From Halorientalis salina (GTDB lineage Archaea > Halobacteriota > Halobacteria > Halobacteriales > Haloarculaceae), in assembly GCF_005049285.1 (NCBI RefSeq), contig NZ_SOSC01000002.1, forward strand, positions 1 to 64,000: a DNA stretch of 64,000 bases. Reading direction: 5' to 3'. This document shows, piece by piece, positions 22,587 to 25,002 of this stretch. Position numbers and translations under genes: made by a program. Within the stretch, counting starts at the first letter, position 1. Every line of letters begins with the position of its first letter. The notes under the pieces were generated by a model that saw only the letters and a program-made list of their open reading frames with translations, had not been told where the DNA came from and did not search any database.

Positions 22587-23021
22587 CTAGCCGATGGTGA
22601 ACTCCCGTCCGCTCCAGGTCTCGATCTCAAGCTGGTAGGGCGAGACGGTGTCGGAGTCACCCCATGTGACCGGGTTCGGCGCGTACTGGGTGTTCGTGGC
22701 GAGGACCGCCAGGGCGGGTTCGACGTCCGCGTGTTCGGTTTCGACCAGTTCGCCTTTGACGATGACGCTCCGCCACGTCGATTTCGGTTCCGTCTCCTCG
22801 TAGACGGTGAACCCGACGTTCCGGTCGCGCTGGAGACACCGCTTCTTGTGGCTCTCCTCGTCGCCTTCGAGCTGGACGACGAAGAGGTCGCGCTCGTCGT
22901 CGTAGCCGTACGAAACCGGAAGCGGATGCGGGTTCGCGTCGACCCAGTCGTTCAGGGCCAACACCCCCGTTCCGTTGCGCTGGAGGACGTCAATGACCTC
23001 GGCGTCGGTCAGCTGCCTCAT
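22587..23021 (-). CDS. Pyridoxamine 5'-phosphate oxidase-family (FMN split-barrel) protein
   Basis: A 144-residue protein with the split-barrel pattern: NGTGVLALND, PLPVSYGYDDERDLFVVQ, VGFTVYEE, TWRSVIVKGELVET, and a short C-terminal strand (YQLEIETWSGREF). Haloarchaeal proteins of this kind are annotated PPOX-like and probably bind FMN or a deazaflavin. Substrate unknown. ATG 23021 is preferred because GAGGTGA stands just before it. The next gene on this strand begins 61 bases away. Confidence 0.75.
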   Translation of the reverse strand: MRQLTDAEVIDVLQRNGTGVLALNDWVDANPHPLPVSYGYDDERDLFVVQLEGDEESHKKRCLQRDRNVGFTVYEETEPKSTWRSVIVKGELVETEHADVEPALAVLATNTQYAPNPVTWGDSDTVSPYQLEIETWSGREFTIG

Positions 23022-23154
23022 GTCACCTCGGTAAGTCGTCGCCACAGGTAGAAGACAGTTACGTGTCGGTCGAACCGCCAGACGGTCCGCCGGCCGTTCT
23101 CAGAAACCGGGAACGCGATCCCCCGCTTTTCAGAGAACGACCGTAAGCATCCAT

Positions 23155-25002
23155 ATGCCCGTATCGTCGGAGGAGCCGTTCGCGGAGTGGGACGACGAGC
23201 GGTACAGCGTCGACATCGAGCGGTTCGACGAGCAACACAAGCGTCTGTTCGGACTGTTGAACGACCTGCATACGGCGATGGACGAGGGTCACTCCGACGA
23301 GAAGGTCGGCGACATCCTCCGGGAACTCGAGCGGTACACCGAGTACCACTTCGGCGACGAAGAGGAGTTCATGCAGGACTGTGGCTACGCGATGGACTGT
23401 GCCGACTGTTTCTACAACCACCGGGATATGCACGAGAAGTTCGCCGATCGGGTGAGCGAACTCCGGGAGAAACACGAGAACGGCGAGTACATCACGATGG
23501 AGGTCCTGACGTTCGTCCGCGACTGGCTGGACTCCCACATCGCGGCCAGCGACGTGGACCAGAACTACAGCGACTACTACCGGGAGGAAGTCGACGACTA
23601 CGAGTACAATCCCGGACAGTTGAACGCGAACCGCCGGGACGTCGGCCAGACCGACAGCGAGGACCGGCAGGCCGAGCGAACCGCGACGGAAGCGGACGTC
23701 ACAGTCGAGGGGCCGATCCACGAGGGGGACGACCTCACGGTCCCGGAGGGGCCGATGGCGGCCTGGTTCGAGTCGCTCGCCGAAACACGAGGGGACCGAA
23801 CGGCCGCGCTCGTTCGCGAGGGCGAGACGTACGAGGAGCGCACGTTCGCGGAACTCTACGAGCGTGCGCGAGCGGTCGCCGGCGGCCTCCTGTCCGAGGG
23901 GTTCAAACCCGGAGACCGCATCGCAATCGTGGCGGAAAACCGGTACGACTGGATGGTCGTCGACGTGGCCTGTCAGTTGGCGGGGCTCGTGTCGGTCCCG
24001 ATCTACCCGTCGTTCGAGAGCCAGCAAACGGTCGAACTCCTCGAGGAGGCGGCCGTGGACGGCCTCGTCTCCGAGGTTGAGACGGCCGTCGAGGTCGAGG
24101 AGGCCGCCGGGTCGGTCGTCCAGATCGCGGACCTCCCGACGGAGGAACCACGTGCGCTCCCGGGCTTCGAGGCCGGCGTCGACGACGTGGCCACGATCGT
24201 GTTCGACGTCGGCACTACCGGCGAAGAGGGCGGGTGTGCGCTGACACACCGGAACCTCCTTTCGGCCACCGCGTCGCTGGCCGAGGCGTTGCCGCTCGAC
24301 CCGGGTGCCACCGGGACGTGTTTCCTGCCGCTCGCACACGTCTACCAGCGCGTGTCGACGTATTACCTCTGGGCGAGCGGCGGTGCCGTCGCCGTCATGG
24401 ATCCCGACGGGCTCCCCGACCAGTTCGAGGCCGTCCGACCGGACGTCCTCGTCGGCACGCCCAAGGCCTATCAGGAACTCTACGGCGCGCTCCACGACCG
24501 CATCAGCGACCTGGGCTGGATGAAACGCAAGCTCGCCGGGCGCGTCAGCACGTACGGTCGTGGCATCGTCGACGGGAGCGGGACCCCGCTGAAGTACAAA
24601 GCAGCACAGCGGGTCGTCTTCGGACCGCTTCGCGAGACCTTCGGCCTGGATCAGGTCTCGTACGCCCTCTCGGGAGTCGGCAGCCTCGACGACCACCTCG
24701 TGAATTTCTTCCGCGGATTCGGCATTCCTGTCTGTGAACTGTACGGCCCGGTCGAGACGGCCGGCGTCGGCGCGCTGAATCCGGTCGACTCCTTCGAGCC
24801 GGGAACCGTCGGCCGACCCATGCCAGGCACCGCCTTCGCGCGCTCCGAGGCCGGCGAGATCCTGATCCGCGGCCCGAACGTGATGGACGGCTACCTCGAC
24901 GAAGACGCAACTGCGTACGCGCTCCGTGACGACTGGTATGTGACCGGGCAGTCCGGCGAATTCGACGGCAACGGGTACCTCCGGCTGGGGAGTAGCGTCT
25001 GA
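23155..25002 (+). CDS. Hemerythrin domain fused to truncated acyl-adenylate-forming (ANL) domain
   Basis: A 615-residue fusion. Residues about 10-140 form a bacteriohemerythrin with all diiron ligands: His28, His65, Glu69, His89, His93, His128, Asp133. Residues about 195-615 form the large N-terminal domain of an AMP-binding (long-chain acyl-CoA-synthetase-like) enzyme. The P-loop reads GTTGEEGG (353-360) without the usual Ser and Lys, A5 is LYGPVETAG (529-537), and the TGD motif is TGQ (597-599). The chain stops at GYLRLGSSV, so the C-terminal domain with its catalytic lysine is missing. The next gene converges 52 bases away, so no frameshifted remainder exists. It is probably an O2/NO- or iron-sensing protein with an acyl- or nucleotide-binding module, not an active synthetase. 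Confidence 0.82.
   Translation: MPVSSEEPFAEWDDERYSVDIERFDEQHKRLFGLLNDLHTAMDEGHSDEKVGDILRELERYTEYHFGDEEEFMQDCGYAMDCADCFYNHRDMHEKFADRVSELREKHENGEYITMEVLTFVRDWLDSHIAASDVDQNYSDYYREEVDDYEYNPGQLNANRRDVGQTDSEDRQAERTATEADVTVEGPIHEGDDLTVPEGPMAAWFESLAETRGDRTAALVREGETYEERTFAELYERARAVAGGLLSEGFKPGDRIAIVAENRYDWMVVDVACQLAGLVSVPIYPSFESQQTVELLEEAAVDGLVSEVETAVEVEEAAGSVVQIADLPTEEPRALPGFEAGVDDVATIVFDVGTTGEEGGCALTHRNLLSATASLAEALPLDPGATGTCFLPLAHVYQRVSTYYLWASGGAVAVMDPDGLPDQFEAVRPDVLVGTPKAYQELYGALHDRISDLGWMKRKLAGRVSTYGRGIVDGSGTPLKYKAAQRVVFGPLRETFGLDQVSYALSGVGSLDDHLVNFFRGFGIPVCELYGPVETAGVGALNPVDSFEPGTVGRPMPGTAFARSEAGEILIRGPNVMDGYLDEDATAYALRDDWYVTGQSGEFDGNGYLRLGSSV

Follow-up and report, generated by a model that had tools for sequence, protein, structure and literature searches.

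The fusion gene and its divergent neighbour

The window, that is the whole 64,000-nucleotide stretch of Halorientalis salina DNA that was analysed, holds at positions 23155..25002 of the plus strand a gene for a protein of 615 residues, in which a bacteriohemerythrin is followed by the whole large domain of an ANL/long-chain acyl-CoA synthetase. The open reading frame runs from an ATG at 23155 to a TGA at 25000-25002 without any internal stop, and has orthologues in six named genera. The first-pass annotation had read the gene as a hemerythrin (Hr) joined to an ANL large domain, and this is borne out by Pfam, by NCBIfam and by the AlphaFold model. The Pfam matches are Hemerythrin (PF01814) at residues 21-131 (E 2.8e-12) and AMP-binding (PF00501) at residues 206-581 (E 2.3e-55), while the bacteriohemerythrin model NF033749 gives 115 bits against a cut-off of 84, and TIGR02481 gives 96 bits against 52. 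The hemerythrin domain occupies approximately residues 9-145 (23179..23589, plus strand) and the ANL large (N-terminal) domain, which has no C-terminal lid behind it, 23707..24999 on the same strand; a variable linker of low model confidence lies between them at about residues 161-184 (23635..23706, plus strand). The AlphaFold model (22 orthologues) has a mean pLDDT of 81, with values mostly of 85-98 in the ANL domain and of about 65-82 in the hemerythrin helices, and the confidence falls below 50 in the cysteine loop and in the linker, so that the coupling surface between the two halves is not modelled.

On the minus strand at 22587..23021 lies a divergently oriented NimA/PNPOx-like gene of the Pyridox_ox_2 family (Pfam PF12900, 53 bits against a cut-off of 27), which has its likely start at the ATG at 23021 and an alternative upstream GTG at 23045. 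The PDB relatives of its product are 2hq9 and the NimA-related 1w3o. The protein was not assigned as a Nim resistance protein, as its score lies under the cut-off of the NimABCDEF equivalog. Between the two genes is an operator-like palindrome, TTCTCAGAAACCGGGAA, at 23097..23113, 58 bp upstream of the fusion ATG, and a TATA-like element, TTTTCA, can be read at 23127..23132 of the plus strand, 23-28 bp upstream of the same ATG, a position that would be compatible with a leaderless transcript.

A cysteine-bearing hemerythrin and an ANL domain without P-loop residues or lid

The diiron ligands of the hemerythrin half are H28, H65, E69, H89, H93, H128 and D135 (or D133), the first six being invariant. 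The seventh is an invariant Asp at H+7 (D135), and the position H+5, which is D133 here, is occupied by D, N or E among the relatives. In haloarchaeal Hrs two residues are inserted ahead of the last ligand, for which the canonical spacing is H-x4-D, and the seven ligands claimed in the first-pass annotation thus appear correct in number for this copy, but with the seventh at a non-canonical spacing. Between ligands E69 and H89 there is a five-residue insertion with a CX5CX2C region (C76, C82 and C85; 23380..23409, plus strand). According to the alignment these three cysteines are invariant in haloarchaeal Hrs, fused as well as stand-alone, and the insert was not found in 15 other Hrs of the phylum in the same alignment. 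Judged by the CX5CX2C insert and by the altered spacing at the seventh iron ligand, the Hr of the fusion belongs to a haloarchaeal subtype, which is described here for the first time. The cysteines, which lie between two stretches of diiron ligands, could form a redox or metal switch.

The ANL half has kept its fold. Compared with known ANL large domains, the model of the domain gives Z values of about 43-44 and rmsd values of 1.9-2.2 Å over 359-384 residues (ten best matches), and ten positions (A276, R399, P429, P436, Y439, A484, G497, G521, G553 and G573), which are part of the fold positions invariant in intact enzymes, are retained in all 37 distinct fusion sequences. The P-loop at residues 350-360 (24202..24234, plus strand) reads FDVGTTGEEGG in this copy instead of YTSGTTGxPKG, with Ser replaced by Val and Lys by Gly. 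The P-loop residues T351, S352 and K359 are retained in none of the 37 sequences, and the C-terminal lid with the catalytic Lys is likewise missing from all of them, the protein stopping at the hinge; the earlier claims of a lost P-loop Ser/Lys pair and of an absent lid therefore hold for the fusions as a whole. The claim that the Asp of the TGD motif is lost applies to this copy, where residues 597-599 (24943..24951, plus strand) read TGQ, but not to the whole family, since 15 of the 37 sequences have the Asp. The A5 Glu (E534) is retained here and in 20/37 sequences altogether. Of the features expected of an active ANL enzyme, this copy thus has the fold, and lacks the P-loop residues, the lid and the TGD Asp. 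The constant lesions of the fusion clade are the P-loop and the missing lid, losses common to all its members; the other motifs eroded in parts of the clade, probably later.

Full-length orthologues of the fusion, about 605-654 residues long, were found in 35 of 146 family genomes and form one clade (tree support 100/99), with members in Halorientalis, Haloarcula, Halosimplex, Halomicrobium, Salinibaculum and Halovenus, the genera being named from the sequence records. In the tree the fusion ANL is closest to intact stand-alone long-chain acyl-CoA synthetases. The median dN/dS in 91 Haloarcula pairs is 0.039 for the Hr half and 0.118 for the ANL half, so that both are under purifying selection, the ANL half with a looser constraint. 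The first-pass annotation had itself named two observations that would speak against its reading, namely intact homologues, which would make this copy a recently decayed gene, and a sequencing error near 25000. No fusion with an intact ANL was found among 392 genomes of the order, searched by sequence, or among the 146 family genomes, and a sequencing error is excluded, as the homologues share both the end point and the lesions. A search of 393 genomes of the phylum with the Hr alignment found Hrs outside Haloarculaceae only in frames of at most 181 residues. Local decay was seen in the Halomicroarcula-like branch of Haloarcula, where the partner gene is also missing: a second fusion copy is frameshifted (L114:3808-5642, genome G289), and another copy is internally deleted (L120:3333-3947, genome G319).

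The NimA/PNPOx-like gene is divergently adjacent to the fusion in 28 of 35 fusion genomes. Orthologues, defined by a score above 200 bits where the next homologues in the 146 family genomes reach at most 136, occur in 28 genomes, always at the locus of the fusion, and the 111 genomes that lack the fusion have none. It is the only neighbour conserved across loci (14/17, every other cluster being found at four loci or fewer), and its linkage to the fusion is newly reported here. The seven fusion genomes without it belong mainly to the Halomicroarcula-like branch. Salinibaculum sp. KK48 has two divergent fusion copies, one on a plasmid and one on the chromosome, neither of which adjoins a NimA/PNPOx-like gene. 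Other genes near the fusion in the window, such as asd and those for a glyoxalase and a 2-hydroxyacid dehydrogenase, were rejected as conserved neighbours, as they are shared only with Halorientalis marina, a close relative of the haloarchaeon analysed here.

The palindrome and the genes that carry it

Of 37 fusion genes, 34 have the palindrome, TTYYCA-N5-TGGGAA with some variation, beginning 57-59 bp before their ATG, and it is present also at fusion loci that have no NimA/PNPOx-like gene. Its distance from the start codon of either gene is about 60 bp in Haloarcula, Halosimplex, Halomicrobium and Halorientalis persicus, and the fusion and the NimA/PNPOx-like gene are probably both controlled from this one palindromic operator. 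It was not found before the intact sister ANL genes and is present at two stand-alone Cys-type Hr genes (L061 and L115), which suggests that it was probably the Hr half that brought the operator along. In Salinibaculum sp. KK48 a stand-alone Cys-type Hr gene is immediately followed, on the same strand, by nirK and a blue-copper-like gene (L179:3204-5112).

A genome-wide search with a relaxed form of the palindrome gave 17 forward and 12 reverse matches, some palindromic sites being counted twice, against 0 and 1 for a control with the reversed pattern, and many of the sites lie 57-63 bp before an ATG. The motif-bearing set, read from this genome and four related ones, includes nirK (copper nitrite reductase), halocyanins, multicopper oxidases, COX15/CtaA (heme A synthase), the NirDL siroheme decarboxylase, DmsR_N-HTH_10 regulators, Htur_1727 proteins and an MCP transducer, together with genes that are not obviously respiratory (Usp, TrkA and creatininase). 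We regard this set (loci L125-L147 and L148-L169) as a candidate haloarchaeal respiratory/denitrification regulon with an operator about 59 bp before the start codons. The palindrome may be bound by a regulator of the DmsR/NarO type; one DmsR_N gene was found in this genome, and its locus does not have the palindrome. nirK is present in 32 of 35 fusion genomes against 50 of 111 others, a difference that is confounded by phylogeny. The small proteins of the Htur_1727 family, a radical-SAM partner, recur with the palindrome (L145:1223-1459, L157, L161 and L164), and this recurrence suggests that they might take part in respiration at low oxygen or in heme synthesis.

Possible function and comparison with known systems

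The first-pass annotation had inferred an O2-, NO- or iron-responsive module that would control a ligand-binding pseudoenzyme. The reading that we prefer, and to which we give about even chances, is that the fusion is a dedicated accessory or sensor protein of the low-oxygen/denitrification response in Haloarculaceae, in which the dead ANL domain serves as a binding or output module and which acts together with the NimA/PNPOx-like protein. The diiron Hr with its cysteine-bearing loop would bind O2 and/or NO, gases that we favour over iron because of the operator and the linked flavin-type gene. Binding at the Hr would alter the state of the retained, catalytically dead ANL large domain, the candidate ligands of which are acyl-CoA, acyl-AMP or a partner protein. 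The product of the divergent NimA/PNPOx-like gene would act in concert with the fusion; it might, for instance, be a flavoprotein that serves to reduce or to read the diiron site. A more specific proposal, and one that we hold to be unlikely in this full form, is a new class of archaeal gas sensor in which a thiol-containing diiron Hr gates a pseudo-adenylating receptor of acyl-CoA or acyl-adenylate, so that O2/NO and acyl (carbon) status would be passed to a dedicated flavoprotein encoded from the same bidirectional operator.

The main rival to the sensor reading, which is possible although we consider it doubtful, is an O2/NO scavenger or carrier, where the Hr is the working part, reduced by the flavin-type partner to give an O2 or NO reductase, and the ANL domain serves only as a scaffold, stabiliser or protein-docking surface that binds no metabolite. 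The Hr half evolves slowest (dN/dS of 0.04 against 0.12), the ANL half has kept its fold positions and lost those of the P-loop, and the orthologue of the NimA/PNPOx-like gene is confined to the fusion locus, all of which is in line with such a role, as is the O2 delivery attributed to the hemerythrin of hypoxic denitrifying methanotrophs (PMC12607906). However, a domain of 430 residues under purifying selection would be costly as a mere scaffold, and the same family also uses stand-alone Cys-type Hrs without any ANL domain.

It is very improbable that the ANL half is active in trans, as one subunit of a two-subunit enzyme gated by the Hr, binding an acyl-adenylate or acyl-CoA while another ANL protein supplies it with the lid or the adenylate. 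The large domain does stop precisely at the hinge, and the TGD Asp and the A5 Glu are retained in part of the clade, but the P-loop Ser and Lys are missing from all 37 sequences and no lid-only gene occurs among the conserved neighbours at 17 loci. The progressive loss of A5 and A7 residues, and the frameshifted and internally deleted copies of the Halomicroarcula-like branch, would fit a slowly decaying relic in a fusion with no function beyond that of its Hr; we think there is little chance of this, as the open frame is intact in 35 genomes of a single clade that spans six genera, with the ANL dN/dS at 0.12. Iron-sensing hemerythrin domains exist, as in the eukaryotic FBXL5 (cited in PMC4919030), and the fusion might by analogy sense iron levels with the ANL half as effector. 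This is the least probable of the explanations considered, since the motif-bearing genes are those of respiration and denitrification and no iron-uptake gene is among the annotated ones. With the tightly linked NimA/PNPOx-like gene and the operator, what would be an orphan fusion becomes a three-part system that can be tested, and the palindrome provides a candidate regulon for haloarchaeal respiration and nitrite reduction.

In some respects the motif-bearing set can be compared to the NarO/DmsR-controlled anaerobic respiration of haloarchaea (PMC11218638), as DmsR_N-HTH_10 regulators, nirK and halocyanins are found in both, but the denitrification motif reported for Haloferax mediterranei, CGAAYATDKTYG (PMC11218638), differs from the TTYYCA-N5-TGGGAA found here. 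The domain pair itself has been mentioned before. A survey from 2016 (PMC4919030) names Hr with AMP-binding in one sentence, for Euryarchaeota with an assignment to Methanococci, and describes no degradation, partner, operator or function. In our data the pair was seen only in Haloarculaceae, and the assignment to Methanococci may be a slip. The statement in the first-pass annotation that no system of this kind had been described has therefore to be narrowed: this sentence was all that was found in the open-access literature on hemerythrin in connection with AMP-binding domains, acyl-CoA synthetases or haloarchaea, and no description of the pseudoenzyme state, the Cys insert, the partner or the operator was found there.

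With regard to the ANL half, the closest comparison is with the nine sister stand-alone haloarchaeal long-chain acyl-CoA synthetases, which are 38-44% identical to the fusion over the ANL large domain. They keep the SGTTGxPKG motif, TGD, the hinge and the whole lid, whereas the fusion has kept neither the P-loop nor the lid, and, unlike the fusion, they are not joined to an Hr, are not linked to a NimA/PNPOx-like gene and carry no operator near the start. The same fold is found in feruloyl-CoA synthetase (8wev), in the N-domain of FACL13 (3t5c/5zrn) and in MenE (5x8f), with Z values of 43-44 and rmsd values of 1.9-2.1 Å, but these enzymes retain their catalytic motifs, while the fusion has lost the P-loop residues and the lid by evolution. 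With regard to the Hr half, the bacteriohemerythrins and DcrH-Hr (McHr of Methylococcus capsulatus, 4xpx; DcrH of Desulfovibrio, 2avk) share the four-helix diiron fold, with six ligands in register. The fusion differs from them in the CX5CX2C insertion near the diiron site, in the two-residue insertion before the seventh ligand, and in its fusion partner, which is an ANL domain and not an MCP or other signalling domain.

Sensor fusions of Hr are already known, and what is new here is the Hr subtype, the linkage to a NimA/PNPOx-like gene, and the palindrome with its gene set. The known hemerythrin sensors mostly have standard outputs, such as chemotaxis, cyclic-di-GMP or a ubiquitin ligase. Here the output would be an ANL-superfamily pseudoenzyme that was inactivated in a single lineage and has stayed under selection, which suggests that ANL domains can take on new roles that need no ATP chemistry.
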